Assembly: GCA_947857085.1 (NCBI GenBank)
Contig: CANUDF010000015.1
Coordinates: 1-33,035 of the forward strand
Length of the DNA: 33,035 bases
From: Candidatus Gastranaerophilales bacterium
Lineage (GTDB): Bacteria > Cyanobacteriota > Vampirovibrionia > Gastranaerophilales > Gastranaerophilaceae
Direction of reading: 5' to 3'
Shown here piece after piece: positions 1,624 through 14,245 of the stretch. The first letter of the stretch is position 1; the number at the start of each line of letters is the position of its first letter. A model generated the notes under the pieces. It saw nothing but the letters and a program-made list of their open reading frames with translations. It ran no database searches and was not told the origin of the DNA. The translations under genes were made by a program, and so were the position numbers.

Positions 1624-1821
1624 ATGAAACTTACACCAAAGGAACATGATGTAATAACTTTGGTTGCGGATGGTTATGCAGATAAAGAAATCGGTCTAAA
1701 ACTAAAGATTTCCCCAAGAACGGTTCAAGCACATCTTACAAGTATTATGCTAAAATTGCAGGCCCGTAACCGAACAAACGCAGCAGTATTATATATAAAA
1801 GCTAAATATAAGAAAAAATAG
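1624..1821 (+). CDS. Stand-alone LuxR/GerE-type DNA-binding domain
   Basis: This 65-residue protein is almost nothing but the LuxR-type helix-turn-helix. LTPKEHDVITLVADGYADKEIGLKL matches the conserved LTxxExxVxxLxAxGxxxKEIAxxL scaffold, and SPRTVQAHLTSIMLKL is the recognition helix region. No receiver or ligand-binding domain precedes it, and the upstream bases offer no frame for one. An AAAAAGGAATT ribosome site precedes the ATG. The stop is 7 bases before the amidase gene, so the two are co-transcribed. Inference: it is the only DNA-binding regulator of the cassette and may switch late or lysis genes on. Stand-alone GerE domains are known in Bacillus sporulation and in some phages. Confidence 0.85.
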   Translation: MKLTPKEHDVITLVADGYADKEIGLKLKISPRTVQAHLTSIMLKLQARNRTNAAVLYIKAKYKKK

Positions 1822-1828
1822 GTATTTT

Positions 1829-2326
1829 ATGCAACGAATTATTATTCATTGGACAGGCGGTGGTTATTACCCCACCGCCTACGAAAAGAACTATTACCAT
1901 TTTTTGGTGGACAAAGAAGGTAAGGTTCATAAGGGTAAGTTTAAACCTGAGGACAACTTAAACTGTAAAAAAGGTACTTACGCAATGCACACAGGTGGAG
2001 GAAACACCGGTTCAATAGGGATATCTTTGTGCGCAATGGCCGGATTTAAAAGTTCTAAAGAACCCGGCAAATATCCTGTTACAGCAGAACAATTTGAAGC
2101 TGCAATGAAATATTGTGCTGAATTATGTATAAAATATAACATAAAAATTACCCCTGAAACAGTAATGACACACTATGAATTCGGGGTAAAACATCCATCT
2201 ACCAGCAGCGCCGGAAAAATTGATATTATTTACCTTCCTCCATATTCCTGGGTTGCAAAAGAGGAAATAGGAAGTTTTATACGAACAAAAGTTAAGTGGT
2301 ACAAACAAAAAATACAGGGAGAATAA
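1829..2326 (+). CDS. N-acetylmuramoyl-L-alanine amidase (Amidase_2 endolysin)
   Basis: A 165-residue protein made of a single Amidase_2/T7-lysozyme-like domain, which cuts the bond between MurNAc and L-Ala in peptidoglycan. Likely zinc ligands are H7 in IIIHWTGG, H115 in MTHYEF and D132 in GKIDI. Other family features are H54 in AMHTGGGNTGSIGISL and the YHFLVDKEGKV strand pair near 23-33. There is no signal peptide, as expected for an endolysin that needs a holin or other release route. It has no cell-wall binding domain. It sits between the LuxR-type regulator and the tail hub gene, which is unusual because lysis genes normally lie together. A second lysin of another class (GH108) is encoded at 10083. 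Confidence 0.88.
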   Translation: MQRIIIHWTGGGYYPTAYEKNYYHFLVDKEGKVHKGKFKPEDNLNCKKGTYAMHTGGGNTGSIGISLCAMAGFKSSKEPGKYPVTAEQFEAAMKYCAELCIKYNIKITPETVMTHYEFGVKHPSTSSAGKIDIIYLPPYSWVAKEEIGSFIRTKVKWYKQKIQGE

Positions 2327-2328
2327 TT

Positions 2329-3843
2329 ATGGAAGTTGCTTATTTTAACCTCGCAGGCGGAATAAACCAGGCGTCTACAAAAACAGAACTCGGACTTGAT
2401 ACTAAAAAAATTTACTGGTCTGATGCTGTAAATATAGAAATTTTAGAAAATAAAGGCATTTGCAGACAAAAAGGCAATACTTTATTTTTACAGCTGCCAG
2501 AAGCGGAGCCTGTTACCGGGATGAATGAACTGTTTATTGATGACAATTATAAATTAGTGATAACTACAGAAAGTGGCAAAATTTATATATATGATGAACA
2601 AAATAAAAAGCTGGAAAAGTTAGAGAAAACTCTTACTGGCAAAAATCCTATATTTGCAAATTTTTTGAATGGTACAATTATTGCAACCGAAGGTGACAGT
2701 CCATTCTATCTTAATTTTGATTTGACAGTTGAGGATTGTAAACTCAAAGATAATGAAGAAAATCCTATTATCGTGAACTCTGCAGCCGTTTATAAAGGTC
2801 GTGTATGGTTCTCTTCCGAATCAACTATTTATTACTCTGCATTGGGCACTTATAATGACTTTACTACAGAAAATGATGCAGGATATATCAGTGATTTCCA
2901 TACAGACACCTCCAACATCATAGCTATCAAACCATACAAAGATTACCTTGCTATTTATAAGAGAAATACTGTATATTTACTAAGCGGTTCTAATCCTGAT
3001 AACTTTGCCATAACTCCGTTTGCAAATAAAGGCTGTATAGCCCCAAATTCTATATTAAATGTTGAAAACAGACAATATTTTTTAAGTACAGGTATTTATT
3101 CACTTGAACAGGTCGGGGAATTAAATCAAATTAAACTAGGCTCCGAAATTTCTCAAAAAATCAAACCTGAATTAGAAAAATTCAGCCCGCTGGAACTTGT
3201 TAAAAGTTTTTGTGTACATTATGAAAATAAAAACCAGATGTGGTTTTTCTTCCCGTACCCGTCTGAAAATTATTATCATACAGTATGGATAAATGATTAT
3301 GTAAATAAAGCCTGGTATAAAAGGGTTATTCCGCAGGATATCACAACTAGTGCTGTTTTTAAATTTAATATTTTGACAGCAGATAAAGACGGCAAAATAT
3401 ACAGAGAAGATTATGGAACAACATTTGACGGCAGCGCCATAGAATTTATGTGGAAATCACCTTTTTTAGCCATAAATTCTGCCCATCACAGAAAAATGAT
3501 TGATGAATTTTATTTTATTCTCGATGAAACTTATGATAACAATTTTAACTTTTCAGTCTATAAAGATTACAACAGTGAAAGCGCTGATGATATAGAAAAA
3601 ATATACTCTAGCAATTTTGAACATTTAATATGGGCTGATGATAGCACAAGTGACAAACTTGCCTGCCACTGGGCGCTTGAAGATGAAAATATTCCTATTT
3701 GGTCGGTCAGTACGAACTCGCTTGAAAAAGCTGAAATTTCCGAAGCAAACTATGCAATCCAGCTTTGTGTAGAAGGTAATGAGCCGGAACAAGCCTGTGC
3801 CATTATAGGATTACAGTTTAGAGAAATTTATAATGACGATTAG
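2329..3843 (+). CDS. Tail hub / nozzle beta-propeller protein (P22 gp10 or T7 gp12 type)
   Basis: A 504-residue protein with the all-beta, repeat-rich look of short-tail hub (nozzle) proteins. The N-terminus (NLAGGINQ, then IEILENKGICRQKGNTL) and the later GRVWFSSESTIYYSALGTYNDF, LAIYKRNTVYLLSG and GIYSLEQVG stretches are typical blades of this family. In podoviruses it closes the portal channel below the adaptor and forms the tail platform. The frame opens upstream, but the start at 2329 is chosen because an AGGGAGA ribosome site lies just before that ATG and the amidase stop is three bases away. Here it precedes the coat gene instead of following it. Assignment is by pattern and not by a catalytic motif, so the exact class (gp10 or gp12) is open. 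Confidence 0.68.
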   Translation: MEVAYFNLAGGINQASTKTELGLDTKKIYWSDAVNIEILENKGICRQKGNTLFLQLPEAEPVTGMNELFIDDNYKLVITTESGKIYIYDEQNKKLEKLEKTLTGKNPIFANFLNGTIIATEGDSPFYLNFDLTVEDCKLKDNEENPIIVNSAAVYKGRVWFSSESTIYYSALGTYNDFTTENDAGYISDFHTDTSNIIAIKPYKDYLAIYKRNTVYLLSGSNPDNFAITPFANKGCIAPNSILNVENRQYFLSTGIYSLEQVGELNQIKLGSEISQKIKPELEKFSPLELVKSFCVHYENKNQMWFFFPYPSENYYHTVWINDYVNKAWYKRVIPQDITTSAVFKFNILTADKDGKIYREDYGTTFDGSAIEFMWKSPFLAINSAHHRKMIDEFYFILDETYDNNFNFSVYKDYNSESADDIEKIYSSNFEHLIWADDSTSDKLACHWALEDENIPIWSVSTNSLEKAEISEANYAIQLCVEGNEPEQACAIIGLQFREIYNDD

Positions 3844-3888
3844 CACCACTCTATTTGTACATACACTTAAAAACAGAAAGGAAAAACA

Positions 3889-4776
3889 ATGACAGACTCA
3901 ACTCCAACACAAACACTAAGTTCTGGCGATTACTCACATACTTATGGTGCATTTGTTCCTGAGGTATGGAGTCAAAAATTAAACACTATGCTTGAAAAAG
4001 ATTGTGTTATGCTCCAATGTGTAAACAGAAACTATGAAGGTGATATTAAAAATCAAGGTGACAAAGTTAAAATTATCACACCTGCAACTGTAAAAGTATC
4101 TACCTTAGGTTCAGAAAATATTACATATGAAGCACTTGAACCGACTTCTTCTGAATTATTAATTGATCAGAAAAAATTCTTCGCATTCAAAATTGATGAC
4201 GTTGCTCAAGCCCAAGCTAATACAGATATTATGGAAGCCCACTTGAGAAATGCTAAAAAGGCAATTGAAGAAGTTCAGGACTCTTACCTGCTTGGACAGC
4301 ATGCATATGTGGCCGAAGGCAACTGCGTTGGTACTGAAGAAGCAGCTATAACTCTTGATAAAACAACTATTTATTCTGAATTTGTAAAATTAGCATTATG
4401 TTTGAAAAACTCTAATGCAGTTACATCAGAAAAGCGTCCTTGGGTAGTTATTAACCCGACAATTGAATCATATCTGCTCCAGAGTACTGAATTTATAAAT
4501 GCACATAATGTTGCTGATGAAACCCTCAGAGAAGGAGCTATCGGCAGAATTGCAGGTATGGATGTTCTTGTAAGTACAAATTTAACAGCAACCAACAGTA
4601 AATATTATGTACTTGCAGGTACGAATGACGCAATTACCTTTGCATCACAGCTTGCAAAGATAGAAAGCTTAAGAGATAAAGACAGTTTCTCTGATTTAGT
4701 TCGAGGCTTATATTTATACGGTGCAAAAACAGTACAGCCTAAAGCTTTGGCTAAAATGATTGTTAAAGCAGCTTAA
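3889..4776 (+). CDS. Major capsid protein, HK97-type fold
   Basis: A 295-residue protein that looks like a coat protein of short-tailed phages. The N-terminus has FVPEVWSQKLNTMLEKDCVMLQCVNRNYEGDIKNQGD. It is followed by a beta-rich part with KVKIITPATV. Next comes the long spine-helix region DDVAQAQANTDIMEAHLRNAKKAIEEVQDSYLL, then VVINPTIESYLL and GRIAGMDVLVSTNL, which match the later part of the coat family's A-domain. There is no delta domain or protease in the window, so maturation cleavage is unlikely. The ribosome site AGAAAGGAAAAAC is strong, and a hairpin terminator follows the gene; both fit high expression. A scaffold-like protein is encoded two genes downstream. Confidence 0.85.
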   Translation: MTDSTPTQTLSSGDYSHTYGAFVPEVWSQKLNTMLEKDCVMLQCVNRNYEGDIKNQGDKVKIITPATVKVSTLGSENITYEALEPTSSELLIDQKKFFAFKIDDVAQAQANTDIMEAHLRNAKKAIEEVQDSYLLGQHAYVAEGNCVGTEEAAITLDKTTIYSEFVKLALCLKNSNAVTSEKRPWVVINPTIESYLLQSTEFINAHNVADETLREGAIGRIAGMDVLVSTNLTATNSKYYVLAGTNDAITFASQLAKIESLRDKDSFSDLVRGLYLYGAKTVQPKALAKMIVKAA

Positions 4777-4788
4777 TACCCCCCATTA

Positions 4789-4828
4789 AATGTACTCTTA
4801 AATATAGTACATTTAAGAGTACATTTTT
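4789..4828 (+). terminator. Hairpin terminator after the capsid gene
   Basis: A perfect 15-bp inverted repeat, AATGTACTCTTAAAT (4789-4803) and ATTTAAGAGTACATT (4811-4825), has a 7-base loop and runs into TTTT. It is AT-rich and so probably leaky. It lets the coat gene be expressed more than the genes after it. Confidence 0.7.
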
Positions 4829-4844
4829 CTTAAGGAGAAAATAA

Positions 4845-5087
4845 ATGTTTAAAAATTTAAAATCAAAAATAAAAGAAATTGCCATAACAGCTGTCGAATT
4901 AGCTGAAGATGCACTCGGAAGCAATAAAGGCAAACAAAAAAAAGAAATGGCGATTGAATATATTGTTTCCAATATACCGGTAATAAGGCCGTTAAAAAAG
5001 CTCATTGCTATGCTGTTATCCAGTTTTATCGATGATGCGGTTGAATTTGCGGTTAACTATATGAAAACAATACAGGAGGAGGTATAA
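4845..5087 (+). CDS. Small amphipathic protein between coat and scaffold genes, unknown
   Basis: An 80-residue protein not assigned to a family. The first half is charged and helical (KSKIKEIAITAVELAEDALGSNKGKQKKE). The second half has alternating hydrophobic stretches (IEYIVSNIPVIRPLKKLIAMLLSSFIDDAVEFAV). No clean membrane segment is present. The layout recalls small phage holin-like proteins whose helical charged part precedes or follows a membrane segment, but that is only a suggestion. The ribosome site TAAGGAGAAAATAA is strong. Its stop overlaps the ATG of the scaffold-like gene by one base (TAATG), so translation of the two is coupled. Confidence 0.65.
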   Translation: MFKNLKSKIKEIAITAVELAEDALGSNKGKQKKEMAIEYIVSNIPVIRPLKKLIAMLLSSFIDDAVEFAVNYMKTIQEEV

Positions 5088-5761
5088 TGGAAGAATTTAA
5101 TAACTTTGAAGAACCCATTTTAGATGTGCCTTCACAACAAGATATTTCATTACCTGCCGGAAGTCAGCAGGAGCAGATTAATAATCAGACAAATAATTCT
5201 TCATTGGTTCCGGAGCTGGAAAGAGTATTAGCAGAGGATGCAGCTAAACTCCAAAATCTTGTTCAATCAGGAATACTTACTCCACAACAAGGGCAATATT
5301 ATATGAGTCGATTGGCAGAAAAATCATTTGAAATAAACAGACTCAAACAAGATTCGGAACAAGCAGCACCTGATGTTAATATTATGAGAGCTATAGAAGA
5401 ATTCAACAAAGAAAAACCCGACTTCTTTAATTCAGAAGGACGGTATGAAGTGTTGGATTATTTGAAGAATAGCAATGCTGTTGTTGACAAAGATGAAATA
5501 AATCTAATATCTCAAATGGTAGAAAAACTTGAAAACTCCGCCATAAAAAGATATTTGAAACAACAAGCTCACGAAAAAGCATTGAATGATGAGAATGAAG
5601 CTGCTAAGCGGAAATTAACGGCAAATGCCCAAAATACATCGTCTTACGGCAATAAAAATAAGGTTTTTACTCGTGAGCAGATAGGCAGGATGAGTGGTGC
5701 TGAATTTACCCGAAATGAGCCCCTTATTATGGAACAACTCAGAAAAGGTCTTATACACTAG
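5087..5761 (+). CDS. Scaffold-like capsid assembly protein with C-terminal FTREQIG motif
   Basis: A 224-residue acidic, Gln-rich, largely helical protein with the composition and position of a phage scaffolding protein. Residues 1-45 are disordered-looking (many Q, N, S). Residues 46-180 are helical with coiled-coil character (LERVLAEDAAKLQNLV, then NLISQMVEKLENSAIKRYLKQQ). A flexible linker follows. Residues 194-224 form a compact C-terminal motif of the form FTRxQIGxMxxxEFTxNEPxIMxQLxxGxI. In P22-like phages the scaffold C-terminus is a small helical element that docks to the coat, and I infer the same role here. The same motif occurs twice in the GH108 lysozyme of this cassette. AGGAGGAGG precedes the start. 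Function is inferred from position and composition. Confidence 0.65.
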   Translation: MEEFNNFEEPILDVPSQQDISLPAGSQQEQINNQTNNSSLVPELERVLAEDAAKLQNLVQSGILTPQQGQYYMSRLAEKSFEINRLKQDSEQAAPDVNIMRAIEEFNKEKPDFFNSEGRYEVLDYLKNSNAVVDKDEINLISQMVEKLENSAIKRYLKQQAHEKALNDENEAAKRKLTANAQNTSSYGNKNKVFTREQIGRMSGAEFTRNEPLIMEQLRKGLIH

Positions 5762-5778
5762 TAAATTCAAGTCTTCGC

Positions 5779-5800
5779 AAAAAAGGCGGCGTTTGCCGCC
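5779..5800 (-). terminator. Minus-oriented terminator hairpin between scaffold and adaptor genes
   Basis: GGCGGC (5785-5790) and GCCGCC (5795-5800) form a GC stem with a four-base loop. The A run at 5779-5784 becomes the U tract when the minus strand is read. On the plus strand no T run follows. It would therefore stop antisense transcription, and at most slow plus-strand transcription. Confidence 0.5.
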
Positions 5801-5825
5801 TCTGCGGAGATTTAAAGGAGAAAAA

Positions 5826-6464
5826 ATGAATTATTTAGAACTTATTAATAAATGTCTGGTTGAATTAAATTACAAGCAGGTAAACGAATTTGAGGAACTT
5901 GTAAAAAATGACCACAAAAAAATTAAAAATATTTTAAATTTAATTAATAAAGAAGTATGCCGATTTGATAAATGGAATTTTTTACTAAGAAAACAAACTT
6001 TAACTCTTCCGAAAAATACAGGAGAACTGGATAACACGATTCCGGGCAGAATTGCCCTTGTGTTAATTGACGGAGTTAAACATGAATACTATGAAAATTT
6101 TGAGAAATTTTTGATGAATTCCCAGCCTCCGTGTACTTATTCGGCATTTAATGACAAACTGCTTTTTCCTATTTTTGATGAAGCAAAAAATATAGAAATA
6201 ATATACTACACAAATAATAATGCCAAAGATAATCAGGATAAAGAAAAACTTTCACTTGAAAATGCTGAAGACAGTTCTTTAATTCCTGAATTATTTGCAG
6301 AACCCATTCTTGTTTACGGAACCTGCATGCGCTTAAAGGCAAACCCGCAGCATGTCAAGTTCAGTTACTGGCTGAGCATGTATAATGACGCCCTTGCTAA
6401 CTTACGTTCCAAAAACAAGGTAAGTATTGACGCAGCACCTGCTGTAAAACTTTTCAGGTACTAG
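5826..6464 (+). CDS. Head-tail adaptor (P22 gp4 / T7 gp11-like)
   Basis: A 212-residue protein resembling short-tail adaptor proteins that bind under the portal and carry the hub. Family-like features are the N-terminal helix MNYLELINKCLVELN, then a long helix with INKEVCRFDKWNFLLRKQTLTLP. A central beta segment (IPGRIALVLIDGVKHEYY, later KLLFPIFDEAKNIEIIYYTN) follows. The C-terminal helical bundle begins at IPELFAEPILVYGTCMRLK. The start at 5826 is set by the AAAGGAGAAAA ribosome site; an in-frame extension to 5694 overlaps the scaffold-like gene and lacks one. Hairpins that would terminate minus-strand transcripts lie on both sides of the gene. The family call is by pattern, so other connector proteins remain possible. 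Confidence 0.62.
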   Translation: MNYLELINKCLVELNYKQVNEFEELVKNDHKKIKNILNLINKEVCRFDKWNFLLRKQTLTLPKNTGELDNTIPGRIALVLIDGVKHEYYENFEKFLMNSQPPCTYSAFNDKLLFPIFDEAKNIEIIYYTNNNAKDNQDKEKLSLENAEDSSLIPELFAEPILVYGTCMRLKANPQHVKFSYWLSMYNDALANLRSKNKVSIDAAPAVKLFRY

Positions 6465-6466
6465 TC

Positions 6467-6503
6467 AAAAAAAAAACAGGAAGTTTTTTCATTTCCCCCT
6501 GTT
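6467..6503 (-). terminator. Second minus-oriented terminator-like hairpin
   Basis: AACAGG (6475-6480) pairs with CCTGTT (6498-6503), with further A-T pairs inside and a small bulge. A run of ten A at 6467-6476 becomes a U tract on the minus strand. The plus strand lacks a T run after the stem. The position just after the adaptor stop codon also allows weak plus-strand termination. Confidence 0.4.
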
Positions 6504-6589
6504 AAGATTTACACTAGCCGAAATATAAATAGCATGATTATTATACAATTTTTTTCAAAAAAATACAAATTATACTAAGAAATGTAAAA

Positions 6590-7024
6590 ATGAAACAATT
6601 AACCCCGCAGCAAAAAAACTTTGTAACAGAGTACATAAAATGCCTTGACGGCGAGCTTTCAGCACAAAAAGCCGGATATAAATCTAAAAATTTAAAAGAA
6701 ATTTCTAACCGGCTTTTATCTAAAGATTTCGTAATAAATGAAATAAAACATCAGCTGAAAAAACAAATTTCATCATTACGCGTAAATAAAGGATATGTAA
6801 TTCAAAAACTCTTGCAAATAGCTGAATTTTCACTGGAAGAAGAAGATATTCTGGACAAAGAAGGCATGCCAACCGGAAAAAGAAAACTTCGTGACACAGC
6901 AGCCGGTCTTAAGGCGCTGGAAAGCTTATGCAAATATCTGGGCTTTAATACGCAAAATGAAGAAGAAATTTATAAAGAGGCAAAAATAATAACTATTTCA
7001 AACCTTGATGACAGCAAAATTTAA
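6590..7024 (+). CDS. terS: Terminase small subunit (Terminase_2 family)
   Basis: A 144-residue DNA-recognition subunit of the packaging motor. The N-terminus LTPQQKNFVTEYIKCLDGELSAQKAGYKSKNLKEISNRLLSKDFV is the classic Terminase_2 helix-turn-helix region. It is followed by the oligomerisation helices (VNKGYVIQKLLQIAEFSLEEED and the DTAAGLKALESLCKYLGF stretch). The length is normal. No strong ribosome site is seen before the ATG at 6590. The gene lies about 4 kb from the large subunit, with the portal and a lysozyme gene between, whereas phages usually keep the two adjacent. It starts a run of closely spaced genes through the portal. Confidence 0.88.
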   Translation: MKQLTPQQKNFVTEYIKCLDGELSAQKAGYKSKNLKEISNRLLSKDFVINEIKHQLKKQISSLRVNKGYVIQKLLQIAEFSLEEEDILDKEGMPTGKRKLRDTAAGLKALESLCKYLGFNTQNEEEIYKEAKIITISNLDDSKI

Positions 7025-7037
7025 AAAAGGAGAAAAT

Positions 7038-7391
7038 ATGAAAGACATGGAACAGATGCTATTAAATAATGCATCCTTAGACGAACTTATCCGCATGAAA
7101 ATAGAGGAAGAATTTAAAACAGAATTAAAAACAAAAAAACAAAAACCTGAAGTTGTGACTTTAACCGATTTAAAAGAGGTACCGCGAGAAAAGATTTTCA
7201 CAAAAGATTCAACATTCCGTGTTTACAACCGTAAGAATAAAACTGAAACTTTTATAGATGGAGTACAGGCTGATGCAATGATTGGTCTTAAAAATGCAAT
7301 AAGGGAACAATTTTTAAACAAAACTCTCACTGCTTTTTCTACAGATGATACTTTTGTAAAATTTGAGAGCACAGTAATAAAAAATGTGTAA
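7038..7391 (+). CDS. Small cassette protein of unknown function
   Basis: A 117-residue protein with no family I recognise. The N-terminal half is a charged helix (LDELIRMKIEEEFKTELKTKKQKPE). The C-terminal half looks like a small alpha/beta region (STFRVYNRKNKTETFIDGVQADAMIGLKNAIREQFL). The start at 7038 is chosen because AAAAAGGAG lies six bases before it; the frame is open from 7005, but that stretch overlaps the small terminase gene. Its last 8 bases overlap the GNAT gene, so it belongs to a translationally linked group of small terminase, this protein, GNAT and portal. It may be a capsid accessory protein. Confidence 0.6.
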   Translation: MKDMEQMLLNNASLDELIRMKIEEEFKTELKTKKQKPEVVTLTDLKEVPREKIFTKDSTFRVYNRKNKTETFIDGVQADAMIGLKNAIREQFLNKTLTAFSTDDTFVKFESTVIKNV

Positions 7392-7878
7392 ATTTGTACA
7401 GGTCAAACCTGAATATTTTGAACAGTTAAATCATCTTTATAAAAAGTATATGAAATACCTTGAAGATGATTACAATGAAGATACCTTAGCCGGCATAATA
7501 AACCGAACAGCTCCTTTCTTCTGGGTAATACTTACATCCTCCGACAACTCATTTGCCGGCTTTGTGTATCTTGAAAATATAACAGGCAATCAAAAAGCTC
7601 TGCATAGTGCAGAAATTACAACATGTTTCCATCCTGATTACTGGGGAGATTTTTCAAAATACTGTGCAAAAATTTTCCTGAAACAATGCTTTACGCAGCT
7701 CGGTCTAAAAAAAGTCAAAGCTGTAATATATCCGCAGAACCACAGGGTAAAGACCCTGCTAAAGCTAAGCGGCTTCAAAAAAGAAGCAGAACTAAAATCT
7801 GAAACTCTGAAAGACGGGAAATTACAGGATTTGGAAATTTATTCACTATTCAAAACATATTATGAGGTAAAAAAATGA
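7384..7878 (+). CDS. GNAT-family N-acetyltransferase within the head gene block
   Basis: A 164-residue GNAT-fold protein. The core strands are visible: WVILTSSDNSFAGFVYLENI (beta 2-3), SAEITTCFHPDYWG (beta 4 and the acetyl-CoA loop region), AKIFLKQCFTQLGLKKVKAVIYPQNHRVKTLLKLSGFKKEAEL (helix 3, beta 5, the Asn-containing turn and the GF motif), and a final strand with LEIYSLF. The substrate cannot be told. It overlaps the preceding gene by 8 bases and the portal gene by 4 (ATGA). That placement suggests it acts on phage or host protein during particle assembly and is not a casual cargo gene. Similar acetyltransferases occur in structural blocks of some podoviruses. Confidence 0.78.
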   Translation: MCKFVQVKPEYFEQLNHLYKKYMKYLEDDYNEDTLAGIINRTAPFFWVILTSSDNSFAGFVYLENITGNQKALHSAEITTCFHPDYWGDFSKYCAKIFLKQCFTQLGLKKVKAVIYPQNHRVKTLLKLSGFKKEAELKSETLKDGKLQDLEIYSLFKTYYEVKK

Positions 7879-9524
7879 AAATAGAACAAGAAGATTTAAC
7901 ACAGAAATTAAAAAAAGAAGATGAGCATATTTTAGCAGCAGCAATAACAGAAAAATATGACAAATTTGAAGAATCAAGAATGACACAGCTTAGAGATATA
8001 AAAGCTGTAAGGGAAGCGATATATGACTGTACTATTCCCAAAATAAATGATTGGGCAAGCAAAATGCAGCTTCCGGAGATTTACGAACTGGCTCAGACTT
8101 TAAAATCGCATATCGGACAGAATTTATATTCACATCCGGATGCAATGTTTGATGTCTCAGGAACAACTCCGCAGACTCAGGCTTATGCAAATAAACAAAA
8201 AGCAATGCTGGTAAACACTTTTGAAAACATGAAAATAGAAGAAGAAATTGAAAAGGTGATTGACAGCATTGTTGAAACCGGCGAAACCACTCTGTTCGTG
8301 GGCTGGGAAACAAAAGTAAAACAAACAAGACGTGCCCAGACCCTTGAGGAACAAATCCTCAATCCGACAGAACAAGGTTTTATAGTAGAAGAAAAAATTG
8401 TTTATGACAACGCAAAAATCAAACACATAAAAGCCGAAGACTTTGTATTTGATAAAAACAGCAGAGACCGCTGGGATAACTGTGCAAAGATATACCGCAC
8501 ATATGTTACTCTTGATGAATTAGTATCAGACAAAGCAAACAACCTGTTAACAGACGAGAAAAAAGAGACACTGAAAGGAGTGGTGGCAAGCAAGAAAACT
8601 AAAAACACAGATGACAAAGCAATAGATGGAAATAAACTTGAAATTTTGGAATACTGGGGAGATATAGAGCTTCCAAACGGTAAACTATTGAAAAACTGGC
8701 TAGTTGTAATTGCCGGAAGAAAAGAGATTATAAGATTTGAATCAAATCCTTTTGTAATAAATCCATTTATACACGCAAATATAATTGAATGTCCTTCAAC
8801 ATGCAGAGGCATATCGCCGTTAAGGGTGGCGTTAATCTTAAACAATATTTCATCAACCATATTAAACAAACAGATAGATGCACTTGCTTTAATGATGAAC
8901 CCGCCATATTTAGCACCAAAAGGGTGTTTTCAGGGTGAGCAGGAGGTTCGCCCGGGAAAAATTATAGAATACGATGCAGCTTTAATGCCGTCAGTTCCGA
9001 CGCCTTTAAGCTTTGACAAAGCAATGCAGGGCTGGGATTTTCTAACATATTTTAAAACTACTATTGAGAGTGCAACCGGAATTTTCAAAAATATGGCAGG
9101 CAATCTTCAAACATCACAGAGAACAGCAACCGAACTAAATTATTCAGTAAACGGTCAGGAAGCACGATTGAATATGATGCTTGATGCAATTAACAGAAAA
9201 GTTATTGTTCCAATGGTAGAAAAAACAGCAGAAATAATTGCAAATTTCAAACTTGGACGCGAAGTAATAGGCTTGAATGACCATGGCAAGTCAATGTTTC
9301 TGGAAATCGACGACAACATAAGAAACGCGAATTACATTTACAGATACGGCGATAGAAAAGCAACATTTGAAAGAAAGATGAAATTGAAAGAACTTTTTGA
9401 AGTAGTTAAGTCATTTGCTCAGGTTCCGGAAGTAGAACAACAAATAGACTGGCTAGAATGCTTTAAATTTGCACTTGAACAATACGGTATTGAAAACTCT
9501 AATAATTTCTTGACTGAAAAATAA
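7875..9524 (+). CDS. Portal protein (podovirus head-tail connector type)
   Basis: A 549-residue protein with the pattern of short-tailed phage portals, which form the dodecameric ring at one capsid vertex. Recognisable parts are the N-terminal stem (IPKINDWASKMQLPEIYELAQTLKSHIGQNLY) and the SIVETGETTLFVGWE wing strand. FIHANIIECPSTCRGISPLRVALILNN follows, then the ALMMNPPYLAPKGCF crown-side segment. The helix after SATGIFKNMAGNLQTSQRTATELNY matches the conserved region where portals read ATGxxxxxxG followed by RTATE. The C-terminal region is helical. The length is typical. The start overlaps the GNAT stop. A strong terminator follows the gene, which closes the head operon. Confidence 0.85.
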   Translation: MKIEQEDLTQKLKKEDEHILAAAITEKYDKFEESRMTQLRDIKAVREAIYDCTIPKINDWASKMQLPEIYELAQTLKSHIGQNLYSHPDAMFDVSGTTPQTQAYANKQKAMLVNTFENMKIEEEIEKVIDSIVETGETTLFVGWETKVKQTRRAQTLEEQILNPTEQGFIVEEKIVYDNAKIKHIKAEDFVFDKNSRDRWDNCAKIYRTYVTLDELVSDKANNLLTDEKKETLKGVVASKKTKNTDDKAIDGNKLEILEYWGDIELPNGKLLKNWLVVIAGRKEIIRFESNPFVINPFIHANIIECPSTCRGISPLRVALILNNISSTILNKQIDALALMMNPPYLAPKGCFQGEQEVRPGKIIEYDAALMPSVPTPLSFDKAMQGWDFLTYFKTTIESATGIFKNMAGNLQTSQRTATELNYSVNGQEARLNMMLDAINRKVIVPMVEKTAEIIANFKLGREVIGLNDHGKSMFLEIDDNIRNANYIYRYGDRKATFERKMKLKELFEVVKSFAQVPEVEQQIDWLECFKFALEQYGIENSNNFLTEK

Positions 9525-9534
9525 CTCATTCCAT

Positions 9535-9565
9535 GTGTCATTCACACCAGAATGACACTTTTTTT
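9535..9565 (+). terminator. Rho-independent terminator after the portal gene
   Basis: GTGTCATTC (9535-9543) and GAATGACAC (9550-9558) form a perfect 9-bp stem with a six-base loop, followed by seven T. It separates the portal transcript from the secreted-protein gene that follows. Confidence 0.85.
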
Positions 9566-9617
9566 AGTATAAAAACCCGAACAACAAACTATATACATTT
9601 AATAAAAATATATACAG

Positions 9618-9644
9618 TTTACTTTTAACTGCAATTTGTATAAA
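9618..9644 (+). promoter_or_regulatory. Probable promoter of the LprI-like gene
   Basis: TATAAA at 9639-9644 followed by AT suits a -10. TTTACT at 9618-9623 is a weak -35 at the short spacing of 15. The start codon is 8 bases downstream of the -10, so the leader would be very short. A terminator just upstream makes an independent promoter likely. Confidence 0.4.
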
Positions 9645-9652
9645 ATAAACTT

Positions 9653-10051
9653 ATGAAATATTTAATTGTCTTACTACTATTTCTAACATATCCTATTTAT
9701 GCTTTTAGTATTGAAAATATTGATAAAAAAGAACTTGAATGCATAAACAATACAAGTTCAACATATGAAATGCTAAAATGTACGGATAATGCAGAAAAAG
9801 CTTGGTTTAAAGAAATAAATAAATATAGAAAAGAAATTAAAAAAATTCTCCCTGTTAATGATTATAATTTATTTATAGAATCAGAAAAGCAATGGGACAA
9901 TTATAGACAAAGCCATTTTAAATTTATAAGCAATTCTATTGATAAAAAAGAAGGTACAATGTATAGGAATGTAGCTAAAGGAATACAAAACACTTTGGTG
10001 AAACAACATGCACTATTCTTAAAAGAATATTATCAAATATTAATTGATTAA
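9653..10051 (+). CDS. Secreted LprI/DUF1311-like protein, possible lysozyme inhibitor
   Basis: A 132-residue protein with a signal peptide (MKYLIVLLLFLTYPIYAFS) and a short domain that matches the DUF1311/LprI pattern. C30 in ELECINNTSSTYEMLKCTD pairs with C43, then AEKAWFKEINKYRKEI, a Trp/Arg segment EKQWDNYRQSHFKF, and a final helix. Mycobacterial LprI inhibits lysozyme; whether this protein does is inference. It sits between the portal terminator and the GH108 lysozyme gene with its own promoter-like sequence, the layout of a moron (a gene expressed independently within a prophage). Unlike its neighbours it is very AT- and Lys/Asn-rich, which fits separate acquisition. A role in protecting the cell wall before lysis is one option. 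Confidence 0.68.
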   Translation: MKYLIVLLLFLTYPIYAFSIENIDKKELECINNTSSTYEMLKCTDNAEKAWFKEINKYRKEIKKILPVNDYNLFIESEKQWDNYRQSHFKFISNSIDKKEGTMYRNVAKGIQNTLVKQHALFLKEYYQILID

Positions 10052-10082
10052 CTATTTAGATTTATAGCATAAGGAGATTAAC

Positions 10083-11009
10083 ATGAAAGATGAAGTTTTT
10101 GAAAAAACTTTGCAATTTGTATTGCAAAAAGAAGGAGGTTATGTAAACGATCCGCACGACTTAGGCGGTGAAACGAATAAAGGAATTACACATCAAACAT
10201 ATAATAGCTACAGAAAAAGTAAAAATTTGCCAATTCAAAGTGTAAAATATATATCTGATGATGAAGTAAAAGATATTTATTATAACAATTATTATAAAGC
10301 ATCCGGTGCAGATCAAATATCAGATCCGCAGCTATCTGCATATACATTTGACACAGCAGTTAACATGGGTGTTTCCAGGGCAAAAACTTTTTTGAAAAAT
10401 AGTAATGGTAACCCGGAAATTTTTGAAAAACTAAGACGAGACAAATATGAAGAATTTGTAAAAGCAAAACCCGATCAAAAAAAATATTTACAAGGATGGA
10501 ATAATCGTGTAAATGATCTAAAAGAGTTTTCAATCAAAAATTTCAGCAAAAATGCTTCTGATGAAACTCTAACTTTGCAAGGTGGAATAGAAAAAACGAA
10601 TTATATTGATTTTTTTAAGAATAACTTTATAAAAAAAATTACCGGACAAGCGGCACCAATTGATAACACATCTCAACCTTTTACACGTCAGCAAATCGGC
10701 GCAATGACACCCGATGAGTTCACAAAGAATGAACCGCAAATTATGCAGCAACTACAAATGGGACAAATTAAAAGTCAGGCTCCTGACTTTTCAGCAGTTA
10801 AAAATTCCGGCAGAATATTTACAAGAGAAGATATAGGAAACATGTCCCCTGATGAATATACACAAAATGAACCTCAGATTATGCAGCAGCTAAAATCAGT
10901 TGGAATTCCTGCTAATAAACAAATACAAACTAATCCCAATGTTGTTTTTGTTCAACCTTATACAAGAGCCGATGGTACAGAGGTTAAAGGTTACTATAAA
11001 GCAAAATAG
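10083..11009 (+). CDS. GH108 lysozyme with two scaffold-type FTR motifs and a C-terminal YTRADGT motif
   Basis: A 308-residue protein. Residues 1-155 are a GH108 muramidase domain followed by its usual peptidoglycan-binding part: QKEGGYVNDPHDLGGETNKGIT with catalytic E17, then SAYTFDTAVNMGVSRAKTFL and LQGWNNRVNDL. Residues 156-195 are a linker. Residues 200-229 and 246-275 are two copies of the FTRxxIGxMxPDEFTxNEPQIMQQL motif that also ends the scaffold-like protein. The tail carries YTRADGTEVKGYYKAK (293-308), a short motif seen at the ends of various phage and surface proteins. There is no signal peptide. AAGGAGATTAAC precedes the start. The tail suggests binding to coat or scaffold, so this may be a virion-packaged lysozyme and not only a lysis enzyme. 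Confidence 0.85.
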   Translation: MKDEVFEKTLQFVLQKEGGYVNDPHDLGGETNKGITHQTYNSYRKSKNLPIQSVKYISDDEVKDIYYNNYYKASGADQISDPQLSAYTFDTAVNMGVSRAKTFLKNSNGNPEIFEKLRRDKYEEFVKAKPDQKKYLQGWNNRVNDLKEFSIKNFSKNASDETLTLQGGIEKTNYIDFFKNNFIKKITGQAAPIDNTSQPFTRQQIGAMTPDEFTKNEPQIMQQLQMGQIKSQAPDFSAVKNSGRIFTREDIGNMSPDEYTQNEPQIMQQLKSVGIPANKQIQTNPNVVFVQPYTRADGTEVKGYYKAK

Positions 11010-11053
11010 CAATATAACTTTATTAGTTAAGTAAACATACTTTATTTAAAATT

Positions 11054-12343
11054 ATGAAATACCAATTATTAAAAGCACAGCGCGAATTTTTAGAAATACC
11101 CCACAAATATACTCTTGACGTTGCAGTGTATCAAGGCGGCTACGGTTCAGGCAAAACTTTTGCAGGTTCTCTGCTCGGAATTTTGTTATGCTTAAAATTC
11201 CCGGGCATAAGAGGGCTTGTAGGAGCACAAACTTATACCCTCGTCCGCGACACAACACTTCAAACCTACTTTGAACACCTCGACAGCATGGGTTTCATAG
11301 CAGGAAAAGACTACGACTGGTCCAGCACACTGCAAAAACTTACATTCAAAAACGGTTCTGAAGTGCTTTTCAGACATTTCGACGAACCCAACAAACTAAA
11401 GTCTTTGAATTTGGGATTTGTAGAAATCGAAGAAATGTCTGACACTCCTTACGATACATTTAAAATGCTTCTCGGGCGTATGCGCCAGAAACCGCGCAAA
11501 TGCTGGAAAGATTTTACCTATAGGATTTTCGGACATACAAATCCGGAAATGCAGCGCGGCTGGATATATAAAACTTTTGTTGAAAATCCCGCCCCTAATT
11601 ACAGGCTTATTACAGCGCCGACTACCCAAAATATCTATCTTCCGGACGGTTTTTGCGAGGAGCTGAAAAAACTTTATGACGAAGAATATTATAAAATTTT
11701 TGTTCTTGCCCAAAACGGTGAATATAATAAAGGATTGGTAATAAAAGACTTTTCCGGTGATAATATTAAAGACATAACTTACCAGCCGGAAATGGATTTA
11801 CATATAAGCTGTGACTTTAACGTCGACCCTATGTGCTGGGTTCTGGCTCACCGCACCGATGATAAAGTTTTTTATTTTGACGAAATCGTTCTCGAAAATA
11901 CTACAACAGCAAAAACTTGTGAAGAATTTTGCAGAAGATATCCGAACCATAAAGGCAGAATTATAATCAACGGTGATGCCTCAGGCGACAACAGAAGCTG
12001 CACAAGCGAATATACAAATTATGTTATTATAAAGAAGAAACTTGCTCATTTTGGCTATGATGCAGATATAAAAATTAAAGCATTTAACCCGCCGATTAAA
12101 AACCGTATAATGGCTTTTAATGCAAAAATTAAAAACGCAGACGGCGAAATATGTCTTTATGTTGACAAAAAATGTGAAAAACTTTTGTATAACATCTACA
12201 ATTTGAAATATAAAGAGGGGAGCTCAAGAATTGATATTCCTACATACAGCCAAATTAAGCAGAGCAAAGAACTTAAATTTTTATCACACCCGATAGATGC
12301 TGCGTCATATCTTGTAGATTTTTACTGGCCGATAACTTTATAA
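11054..12343 (+). CDS. terL: Terminase large subunit
   Basis: A 429-residue packaging ATPase and nuclease that appears complete. Walker A is GGYGSGKT at 28-35. Walker B is LGFVEIEEM at about 120-128, with the catalytic Glu at 126 or 127. The FGHTNPE segment at 159-165 fits the coupling motif. The RNase H-like nuclease carries D254 (SCDFNVDP), D308 (INGDASG) and D415 (HPIDAASYL). The length is normal for short terminases of the PBSX/phage P22-like groups. The ribosome site is weak. The gene stands downstream of the lysozyme and far from terS. All catalytic residues being intact argues that packaging is still functional or only recently lost. Confidence 0.93.
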   Translation: MKYQLLKAQREFLEIPHKYTLDVAVYQGGYGSGKTFAGSLLGILLCLKFPGIRGLVGAQTYTLVRDTTLQTYFEHLDSMGFIAGKDYDWSSTLQKLTFKNGSEVLFRHFDEPNKLKSLNLGFVEIEEMSDTPYDTFKMLLGRMRQKPRKCWKDFTYRIFGHTNPEMQRGWIYKTFVENPAPNYRLITAPTTQNIYLPDGFCEELKKLYDEEYYKIFVLAQNGEYNKGLVIKDFSGDNIKDITYQPEMDLHISCDFNVDPMCWVLAHRTDDKVFYFDEIVLENTTTAKTCEEFCRRYPNHKGRIIINGDASGDNRSCTSEYTNYVIIKKKLAHFGYDADIKIKAFNPPIKNRIMAFNAKIKNADGEICLYVDKKCEKLLYNIYNLKYKEGSSRIDIPTYSQIKQSKELKFLSHPIDAASYLVDFYWPITL

Positions 12344-12351
12344 AGGAAATT

Positions 12352-12582
12352 ATGGAAAATTTATTGCACTATTCACCTATAATAATCGCTATTATTGTTT
12401 TTTTAATACAACAAAGAATTGTAGTTACTCCCGAACAGCTTGAAAAAAAACATCGTGAAATTTTAGAGGATGTTGAAGAAAAATTTGTAACACTCAACAG
12501 CTTTCATGATCTAAAAGAACAATTCAGCGAGATGAAAGAAAAAATTGATAAAATATACGACTGTATTATTGCAGTAAAATAA
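12352..12582 (+). CDS. Small membrane protein with coiled coil (holin- or XhlA-like)
   Basis: A 76-residue protein with one N-terminal membrane helix (YSPIIIAIIVFLIQQRIVV, about residues 7-25). It is followed by a charged helix with heptad character (PEQLEKKHREILEDVEEKFVTLNSFHDLKEQFSEMKEKIDKIYDCII). This layout, with one membrane anchor plus a long cytoplasmic or periplasmic helix, is found in phage lysis accessory proteins such as XhlA (which has the reverse order) and spanin-like proteins. AAAGGAAATT lies just before the ATG and the gap from terL is 8 bases, so they share a transcript. It is the only membrane-anchored lysis candidate in the cassette, but the assignment is weak. Confidence 0.55.
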   Translation: MENLLHYSPIIIAIIVFLIQQRIVVTPEQLEKKHREILEDVEEKFVTLNSFHDLKEQFSEMKEKIDKIYDCIIAVK

Positions 12583-12694
12583 TGTAAACATTTGTTACAA
12601 TAATAGTTTTCATTATTAAAGTTTTGTGAGTCTAAAGCCGTCATTCTACATGAGATACAAGGATTTTGTTACTAAGCAGATCGAAAGGAAAGCA

Positions 12695-14245
12695 ATGGGA
12701 CTGGCAGCATCACAAGCAAGATTTTTAGCCATAACTTCCAGAAAAGCATATTGTGAATTCCAATCTATGCAGATTGCACAAGATAAGCTTTCCGTTACCC
12801 GTGATTTGTCAAAAATTTCACAAGAGTATCAAAATTCAATTAATAAAACAAAATTGGTCTGGGATTATGACGGAACAGGTGAAAACCCGTATAATCTGTC
12901 TTACGGCGTCTTGATGACACCAACAACTCTTAATAACTTCCAGCCTTATTTGATAACCACAAGAACAGGCTCTGTTGTATTAAACGGACAGCTTGCAGGT
13001 GCTGCAGCAGTAATAAGCCCTGAGGGCAAACCTGTTGACAGAAGTGACACAGGATTCCATACATTTGTAGATGCTTTAGCACAAAATGGTGTAATAGCAC
13101 CATCAACTGCCAGCAGTATTAAATCACAAAAATATAGCAAAAACGCAGGTTACGGCGCTGAACCGTTAAACAAAAATGGTGCTCTTGTTAACAACGTAAC
13201 AGGTTTAGCTGAAAGGTTATCTGATACAAGCCTTGGATTGACAGGTGATTTTTCTACAGTAGTCACAGACAACGCCTATAAAGTTAAAGTCAATGGTAAT
13301 CTTGTGGGCACTGAAGAGGCACAAGGTTTAACTATCGGTGATTTATTAGAAAATGATGTTGTATATATTTATACATTACCAGATGGAACGCATGATATAA
13401 ACCCTGATGAGGATAGCTTTATCAAATCTGTTGAGGGCATATTTAATAAAATTTATGAGACCCTTTACAATAATATATTCCCTGAAGATGCCGCAACTAG
13501 ATTTGCTCTACAAAATGCTAAAACAATGATAGAATCTAGCTATCTAAATTGGGATAATAGAAAACAGACATTTGACAAGAAAAGTACTAATGGAGCTTTT
13601 GACAATGCTGTAAACAGTGCTAACAATCACCTTGGATATGGATTTGGTCAAACAAACAAAGGTAAAAACAATAGTACTGTTGCCATAAACTTGTCTAATT
13701 TACTTGCGGCATTCTTAACTAATTTTGAGTTAGCATTAAATGGTTATGACTCTGTTTACTCTGTAGGTGGATCTGTTGGCACATCTAACTTTGTAACTGA
13801 TGATCCTTATTATAATTACGTATTAAAAGATGATGATGCTGTTGACAGTGAATTAGTTATGCAAGCTGACTTTTATATGCAGCTTTACAACAACATATGC
13901 GTAAACGGCTGGACTAAAAATGAAAATATTGAAGATGATAATTATCTTACTAATGCGTTAAAAAATGGAACTTATTTTATAACATCCTTAAATGCTGACG
14001 GATATTTCTATCAAGGTCGTTATAATGAAGAAGACTGTATTATTGAAATAAAAGATGAAGATGCTATTGCTCAGGCAGAAGCTGAATTTACATATAAAAA
14101 ATCTAAATTAACTTATAAAGAAGAACAGCTCGATTTGGATATGAAAAACTTAGATACTGAAATTTCTTCATTGACTACGGAATATGATTCCGTTAAAAAC
14201 CTTATCAGCAAAAACGTTGAAAAAGTATTCACTATGTTCCAATAA
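12695..14245 (+). CDS. Large protein of unknown function with N-terminal ASQARFL helix
   Basis: A 516-residue protein I cannot assign. The start at 12695 is preferred because GAAAGGAAAGC precedes this ATG; an in-frame GTG 69 bases upstream lacks a ribosome site. The N-terminus (MGLAASQARFLAITSRKAYCEFQSMQIAQ) is an amphipathic helix that leads into a helical stretch with coiled-coil spacing. The middle (about 60-440) is Asn/Asp/Tyr-rich and beta-like with few charges, as in extracellular or structural proteins. The last 75 residues form another coiled coil (KLTYKEEQLDLDMKNLDTEISSL...). Helical ends around a variable middle recall flagellin-, hook- or needle-type proteins; there is no homology evidence for that here. 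I recall similar N-termini in gut bacterial orphan families. It may be a host gene next to the phage cassette or its last gene. Confidence 0.7.
   Translation: MGLAASQARFLAITSRKAYCEFQSMQIAQDKLSVTRDLSKISQEYQNSINKTKLVWDYDGTGENPYNLSYGVLMTPTTLNNFQPYLITTRTGSVVLNGQLAGAAAVISPEGKPVDRSDTGFHTFVDALAQNGVIAPSTASSIKSQKYSKNAGYGAEPLNKNGALVNNVTGLAERLSDTSLGLTGDFSTVVTDNAYKVKVNGNLVGTEEAQGLTIGDLLENDVVYIYTLPDGTHDINPDEDSFIKSVEGIFNKIYETLYNNIFPEDAATRFALQNAKTMIESSYLNWDNRKQTFDKKSTNGAFDNAVNSANNHLGYGFGQTNKGKNNSTVAINLSNLLAAFLTNFELALNGYDSVYSVGGSVGTSNFVTDDPYYNYVLKDDDAVDSELVMQADFYMQLYNNICVNGWTKNENIEDDNYLTNALKNGTYFITSLNADGYFYQGRYNEEDCIIEIKDEDAIAQAEAEFTYKKSKLTYKEEQLDLDMKNLDTEISSLTTEYDSVKNLISKNVEKVFTMFQ

Follow-up and report, generated by a model that had tools for sequence, protein, structure and literature searches.

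A phage-scaffold terminus on toxin-like proteins of Gastranaerophilales: candidate capsid-loaded polymorphic toxins of a domesticated phage head

The stretch of DNA considered here (hereinafter the window: 33,035 nucleotides of contig CANUDF010000015.1 from a Candidatus Gastranaerophilales bacterium) carries a cluster of phage head genes, within which lies a lysozyme of the GH108 family bearing two copies of a 32-residue motif that also forms the C-terminus of the head's own scaffolding protein. In a survey of 146 genomes from the same Gastranaerophilales family, computation establishes this motif, which we term the tag, as a module of scaffold origin that co-occurs with a conserved head cluster and marks proteins with an effector/immunity gene architecture. 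The reading that we favor, with a fair measure of reserve, is that the tagged proteins are polymorphic toxins of a domesticated phage, loaded into its capsid by docking through the borrowed scaffold tag; from the genes we infer all four of toxicity, coat docking, encapsidation and delivery.

The scaffold terminus and its copies in the lysozyme

The features that carry the comparison are the following:

5087-5761, +: scaffolding protein of 224 residues, adjoining the coat gene
5663-5758, +: C-terminal tag of the scaffold, the source motif
10083-11009, +: GH108 lysozyme of 308 residues, the putative tagged cargo, with two scaffold-type tags recognized by BLASTP and hidden Markov model (HMM) (Pfam Glyco_hydro_108, 4e-27; PHROG endolysin, 3.8e-35)
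10113-10370, +: GH108 catalytic domain (Pfam, residues 11-96)
10677-10772, +: tag 1, PFTRQQIGAMTPDEFTKNEPQIMQQLQMGQIK, A-type, ending in QLxxGxIK as the scaffold does (residues 199-230; HMM 1.9e-20)
10815-10910, +: tag 2, IFTREDIGNMSPDEYTQNEPQIMQQLKSVGIP, B-type, ending in QLxxxGIP (residues 245-276; HMM 2.7e-22)
10911-11006, +: C-terminal beta tail, VVFVQPYTRADGTEVKGYYKAK, shared with many tagged proteins and likewise following the B-type tag in unrelated ones (predicted strands at residues 281-306, low confidence)
9653-10051, +: LprI-like secreted lysozyme inhibitor, a putative lysozyme immunity protein (Pfam LprI, 3.4e-9; N-terminal hydrophobic segment)

The scaffold-like open reading frame (ORF) has the C-terminal sequence KVFTREQIGRMSGAEFTRNEPLIMEQLRKGLIH, at the end of which stands the 32-residue motif VFTREQIGRMSGAEFTRNEPLIMEQLRKGLIH. 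A first-pass annotation of the window had reported that this motif recurs twice in the tail of the lysozyme, and both copies are borne out, with boundaries that agree to within a few residues. Because pairwise BLASTP of the scaffold and the lysozyme yields E = 3e-10 for each copy, and the three window tags score 8e-20 to 3e-22 against a five-copy HMM profile (the one used for the family-wide search), the sequence match is far beyond chance. The AlphaFold2 model of the lysozyme comprises two helix-turn-helix units of moderate confidence (residues 202-206/210-225 in tag 1 and 248-252/256-272 in tag 2), followed by the low-confidence beta tail. Untagged GH108 relatives of ~150 residues on viral contigs end after the catalytic region, and a Pfam scan of the window lysozyme gave no MuF match. 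Two further motif copies are found in the window's own genome, on other contigs (C56 and C18), in proteins without a capsid role of their own, and related genomes hold hundreds more.

The label of scaffold given by the first-pass annotation is supported by the position of the gene beside that of the coat, by the presence of the tag at the C-terminus of free-phage proteins encoded between portal and coat and of a PHROG scaffolding protein, and by fold matches. Each of the 49 family scaffolds that we extracted has the tag at its very C-terminus, as the best-conserved part of a fast-evolving protein, with a mean column identity of 0.69 as against 0.31 elsewhere. The predicted structure is all-helical, with a flexible linker leading to a C-terminal helix-turn-helix (residues 196-201 and 204-219) at a predicted local distance difference test (pLDDT) score of about 90. 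Fold comparison matched it to an unnamed viral protein at E 1.5e-4 and, at E 0.03, to a viral 'Scaffolding protein'; Foldseek against the PDB returned nothing at E<=0.001 and a search of the motif against PDB sequences found no relative. On the viral contigs L276, L277, L281 and L272 the same tag ends a protein of 283-309 residues directly before the coat, the first three of these lying between a portal of ~645 residues and a coat of ~292 residues; on L282 one small gene separates the tagged scaffold-position protein from the coat; and on L316 the tag ends a 249-residue protein that matches a PHROG 'head scaffolding protein' (phrog_206, 6.5e-10). Since scaffold-position proteins of free phages thus end in the tag, its use as a scaffold terminus is probably old and ancestral. 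The motif and one free-phage scaffold gave no match in tblastn searches of the INPHARED phages. We also considered the tag as a marker of the whole phage lineage and rejected this, as no clear scaffold tag is present in most of the related large prophages, whose large terminases are 54-65% identical.

In phage P22, residues 271-300 of the scaffold gp8 form a helix-loop-helix bound to the coat, and removal of the last 11 residues abolishes coat binding (PMC9965877). The tag is, as modelled, a scaffold C-terminal module whose predicted helix-turn-helix resembles this coat-binding domain. The proposal of the first-pass annotation that the lysozyme bears a coat-docking tag is consequently retained as the best reading of the conserved terminus, the predicted fold and the scaffold ends in other phages, with the docking itself a conjecture.

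Tagged proteins and their putative immunity partners

The profile search detected the tag in 79 of the 146 genomes, with up to 16 matches per genome. One match, in G049, was judged spurious, as its sequence resembles, by eye, a MurC-type ligase. In a sample of the phylum the tag is confined to the Gastranaerophilales family and one weak match; likewise, a scan of species genomes found it almost only in records titled Gastranaerophilales, Melainabacteria, Cyanobacteria or unnamed bacteria. Having extracted the tagged loci and read their ORFs, we recognize three architectures. First, in the scaffolds, the tag is the extreme C-terminus. Second, one or two tags lie near the C-terminus and are followed by a tail of ~35 residues, mostly ending in YTRSDGTEVRGYYRAK or GKWVTINGNHVLIEK; when there are two, the first ends in QLxxGLIK as the scaffold does (A-type) and the second in QLxxIGIP (B-type). 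Third, a tag at about residues 17-48, resembling the B-type, precedes a toxin-like domain. Most tagged proteins have a beta tail of the form YTRxDGTxVxGYYR after the B-type tag, and it is also seen behind N-terminal tags; the tail ending in GKWVTINGNHVLIEK is its alternative.

Pfam searches of the 73 tagged non-scaffold proteins recovered DUF6973 (17), Lipase_3 (14), GH108 (6), LPD3 (5), and PBECR1 nuclease, transglycosylase-like and Phage_Mu_F domains (2 each), and NCBIfam placed 11 tagged proteins in the SA1320 family. Most of the tagged non-scaffold genes are unlinked to the head cluster. Several of the proteins have in common a glycine-rich N-terminal region and the tags, with a variable middle, as in arrays such as L049; at the sequence level, such common ends joined to differing middles are the polymorphic-toxin pattern, one shared part being coupled to many toxin-like domains of putative toxicity. 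PADLOC returned weak single matches only and no catalogued defence system.

The neighbors of these genes were classed by predicted location, and putative immunity partners were assigned by hydrophobicity and position. An LprI homologue lies directly upstream of every tagged GH108 gene outside G046 for which upstream sequence is present. More generally, a gene with a signal peptide precedes the tagged gene in 6 of 7 GH108 and 4 of 4 transglycosylase-like cases, compared with 16 of 210 for background genes. All 14 tagged lipase genes are within 45 bp of a divergent gene for a multi-transmembrane protein of 110-156 residues, and a multi-transmembrane neighbor accompanies 12 of 16 DUF6973 proteins and 17 of 24 N-terminally tagged proteins (background 28 of 210). 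Hence, the predicted location of the partner usually fits the toxin, LprI-like and signal-peptide proteins going with peptidoglycan hydrolases and small multi-transmembrane proteins with lipases; position and predicted location thus supply an adjacent candidate immunity gene, which would neutralize its toxin.

A close relative of the window's genome (L317) retains LprI at the site between portal and large terminase (L317:9981-10379), while the lysozyme is replaced by another tagged protein, which by eye is DUF6973-like. Because LprI precedes the tagged GH108 genes and this locus swaps its tagged protein while keeping LprI, the arrangement is, as far as gene order and homology tell, the hallmark of an antibacterial effector paired with an immunity protein. 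An LprI without a neighboring lysozyme, as in L317, resembles an orphan immunity gene.

Some further loci deserve mention. In L102 (G046; 5803-12799), a divergent version of the head cluster includes several tagged toxin-immunity pairs between portal and coat. Small tagged proteins (L025:1291-1677, L169:3535-3975, and similar short ORFs in L135, L139 and L173), some of which match Phage_Mu_F, closely precede a gene of ~250-265 residues, often with a signal peptide. In L044, L054, L134, L150 and L166 a divergent gene of ~127-147 residues lies ~90-140 bp upstream of the N-terminally tagged gene, and some of these begin like helix-turn-helix (HTH) regulators. Between the portal and large terminase of a congener (G038:C21:993-3235, L053), short ORFs contain two near-identical tag blocks, which may stem from frameshifts in tagged genes or from a break in the assembly.

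The head clusters and the distribution of the tag

The remaining recognized genes of the head cluster, annotated by Pfam and PHROG scans of the window's ORFs or by their conserved order in the clusters, are:

1624-1821, +: LuxR-type HTH protein at the cluster start (Pfam GerE, 6e-17), a position kept in most clusters
1829-2326, +: amidase, the putative cluster endolysin (Pfam Amidase_2, 2.9e-15)
2296-3843, +: gp515, head-closure or nozzle-like structural protein (phrog_3287, virion structural, 5.3e-21; phrog_578, head closure, 2.2e-6)
3889-4776, +: major coat protein (phrog_267, 4.3e-54)
4845-5087, +: holin-like protein (Pfam Phage_holin_6_1, 1e-5)
5826-6464, +: SU10-type adaptor (Pfam SU10_adaptor, 1.8e-6)
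6590-7024, +: small terminase (TerS; Pfam Terminase_2, 2.4e-17)
7005-7391, +: conserved cluster gene p128
7384-7878, +: GNAT acetyltransferase (Pfam Acetyltransf_3, 1.4e-10), a constant member of the cluster
7875-9524, +: SU10-type portal (Pfam SU10_portal, 5.2e-22)
11054-12343, +: large terminase (TerL; Pfam Terminase_3, 2.1e-18)
12352-12582, +: p76, a conserved 76-residue gene after the large terminase, with an N-terminal hydrophobic segment in its G038 homologue

A strong match to the coat is present in 70 of the 146 genomes, nearly always in single copy, at 72-86% identity in ~60 of them and more divergent in about ten others. The order LuxR-type HTH, amidase, gp515, coat, holin-like, scaffold, adaptor, TerS, p128, GNAT, portal, TerL, p76 is kept in most of the 20 genomes in which it was read, with rearrangements in G046, G066 and G095. 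In several genera the ~10.5-kb cluster sits between a ZIP gene and h539-SecA, and in three congeners without it these flanks lie close together. Protein distances track those of SecA (Mantel r: TerL 0.91, gp515 0.90, portal 0.88, coat 0.79, scaffold 0.71). The ratio of non-synonymous to synonymous rates (dN/dS), a rough value as synonymous sites are near saturation, is ~0.05 for portal, coat and TerS (0.04-0.06 for the first two), with the scaffold at 0.16-0.24. Pfam revealed no integrase or replication gene among the window ORFs scanned, and neither Pfam nor PHROG recognized a protease among the cluster genes scanned. IMG/VR contigs with a large terminase of at least 78% identity are short (5-18 kb), relatives at 54-58% identity are on contigs of up to 39-48 kb, and one 34-kb viral contig has a coat of 77% identity. 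Because it is single-copy, diverges in step with SecA, evolves under purifying selection, keeps its order and often occupies one chromosomal site, the cluster is best read, from these comparisons, as a domesticated phage and not a random prophage.

A second, unrelated head cluster of siphovirus type (portal phrog_533, coat phrog_10, major tail protein phrog_4971) was found in 26 of the 146 genomes, including loci L428, L434 and L435-L440 (G055, G082, G068, G134, G116, G118, G018, G092). The two clusters occur together in one genome (G020, with the second coat broken) where about 12 would be expected (p 1.4e-7), and the four congeners without the window's cluster all carry the second.

The tag follows these heads closely. 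It is present in 68 of the 70 genomes with the window-type coat as opposed to 11 of the 76 without (Fisher 4e-27), a count that includes the scaffold's own tag; by the stricter measure of two or more tags the figures are 54 of 70 and 2 of 76 (Fisher 7e-23), both tests ignoring phylogeny and leaving shared ancestry uncorrected. Among the 51 genomes with neither head cluster, 48 lack the tag. In G005, G118 and G137 a B-tagged gene adjoins genes of the second cluster. Because this cluster also hosts tagged genes, and the tag is rare where both clusters are missing, the sequences indicate that the module accompanies phage heads generally in this family, its A-type copy being tied especially to the head whose scaffold is tagged. 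The first-pass annotation had held that the coat-docking idea would fall if the motif proved a general repeat of many non-capsid proteins. The profile search and its list of fused domains do place it in many such proteins; this does not undo the idea, because they occur almost only in genomes with a phage-head cluster.

The proposed system, its alternatives and its parallels

We posit the following scenario. The head genes at 1624-12582 would be a domesticated phage head of SU10-type podovirus lineage, kept vertically in the Gastranaerophilales family, and the 32-residue motif the C-terminal end by which its scaffold docks on the coat. Copies of the motif, one or two per protein, would have been gained by many antibacterial toxins encoded in the chromosome, including the GH108 muramidase at 10083-11009, either C-terminally or at residues ~17-48. 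During procapsid assembly, the tags would vie with the scaffold for its sites on the inner surface of the coat and so bring the toxins inside; we infer this loading by analogy with P22, SaPI1 CpmB and the T4 internal proteins. Released by lysis, the particle would then deliver the toxins to neighboring bacteria, with adjacent immunity genes, here the LprI-like inhibitor at 9653-10051, shielding the producer's kin.

Several points weigh against this scenario, beginning with the uncorrected ancestry and the scaffold's own contribution in the co-occurrence counts, and the assignment of partners by hydrophobicity and position. No tail fibre was recognized in the head cluster. Seven of the eleven tagged genomes without a strong match to the window-type coat carry the second head cluster, whose own scaffold ends differently, without the tag; in G055 and G082 a B-tagged gene lies between its portal and scaffold. 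As tagged genes thus lie in a cluster with a tagless scaffold, the B-type tag may dock elsewhere than on the window-type coat. Further, tags are not significantly more similar to their own scaffold than to others (coevolution test, p = 0.14), and three of the 51 genomes with neither cluster have a tagged protein.

An alternative that we hold to be unlikely though quite conceivable is that the tagged proteins are indeed particle-tied antibacterial toxins, but that the tag attaches to some other component of head or tail, or to a host factor for export, its likeness to the scaffold end reflecting a shared partner. The B-like character of the N-terminal tags, the B-tagged proteins in genomes with the tagless scaffold and the lack of significant coevolution with the own scaffold speak for it. 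On the other hand, the scaffold tag is always at the extreme C-terminus, in unrelated phages too, where known coat-binding ends lie, and A-type tags end like the scaffold (QLxxGLIK). An improbable alternative is that the tag is a generic interaction or secretion repeat of this bacterial family, captured by a phage scaffold, with the toxins exiting by some other secretion route; most tagged genes do lie away from the head cluster, and the three genomes just mentioned would fit, but free-phage scaffolds end in the tag, genomes without either head mostly lack it, and in the phylum sample it hardly leaves the family. Least credible, and in our estimate very improbable, is ordinary phage biology, in which an active prophage would use the tagged lysozyme during ejection or lysis to aid DNA entry or release, and LprI would merely regulate it: GH108 is a common endolysin (phrog_315) and occurs untagged on some viral contigs, but most tagged proteins are encoded away from the cluster, with lipases and nuclease-like domains among them, the cluster diverges in step with SecA and often keeps to one site, no integrase or replication gene was recognized among the ORFs scanned, the cluster already possesses an amidase and a holin-like gene, and in a close relative a different tagged protein occupies the lysozyme locus. 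The role in DNA entry that the first-pass annotation gave the muramidase is for its part unlikely, because this lysozyme, one of many tagged toxin-like enzymes, bears the effector/immunity signature and the cluster has its own lysis genes.

Beyond capsid loading in the window-type head, a wider version may be entertained, though we would put it at somewhat below even: two unrelated, almost mutually exclusive domesticated heads may both serve as toxin delivery machines, sharing a single interchangeable tag-and-tail module of scaffold derivation along with interchangeable chromosomal toxin-immunity pairs, and thus constitute a toxin-carrying viriform of another kind than tailocins, type VI secretion or gene transfer agents. 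If capsid loading holds, this would be a capsid-based bacterial weapon in which a borrowed scaffold terminus serves as a cargo barcode, a natural counterpart of engineered P22 loading; it would provide a delivery route for many toxin-like genes of gut Gastranaerophilales and a new answer, besides DNA transfer, to why cells keep phage heads. The tag also lends itself to searches for further toxins and is a candidate peptide with which to load proteins into capsids.

The literature that we searched, with subscription papers outside its coverage, held no description of such a system, but several known ones offer partial parallels. The internal proteins of phage T4 have a short, conserved capsid targeting sequence (CTS) as their sole common part, by which they are loaded into the scaffolding core before being injected (PMC3012670). 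At the sequence level the parallel is that otherwise diverse proteins share one stretch; however, the present tag, of 32 residues, occurs at either end and up to twice and is also the C-terminus of the scaffold itself, and the genes that carry it are for the most part chromosomal, toxin-like and accompanied by putative immunity partners. For the MuF polymorphic toxins of temperate phages, which have immunity genes, carriage in the head followed by injection has been proposed (Jamet 2017, PMC5576092; Bxa, PMC11699363). As in the reading favored here, these are phage-associated polymorphic toxins with immunity genes, but their targeting part is the MuF minor-head domain (SPP1 gp7-like) encoded in a prophage packaging module, whereas here it is the scaffold tag, on genes mostly outside the domesticated cluster, and MuF matches were found in only 2 of the 73 tagged proteins. 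CpmB of SaPI1 shares the C-terminal coat-binding motif (RIIK) of the phage 80alpha scaffold and competes for the coat (PMC5644958); it is thus a second protein with a scaffold's C-terminal motif, but one that redirects capsid size and is not toxin cargo. In engineered P22 particles, proteins fused to the scaffold are loaded inside the shell (PMC12129825), whereas the fusions described here are natural and many. Finally, gene transfer agents resemble the present cluster as vertically kept, compact head clusters under purifying selection, with terminases, portal and coat and no recognized self-replication genes; what sets the present system apart is the sparseness of recognized tail genes and the toxin repertoire appended to the head.
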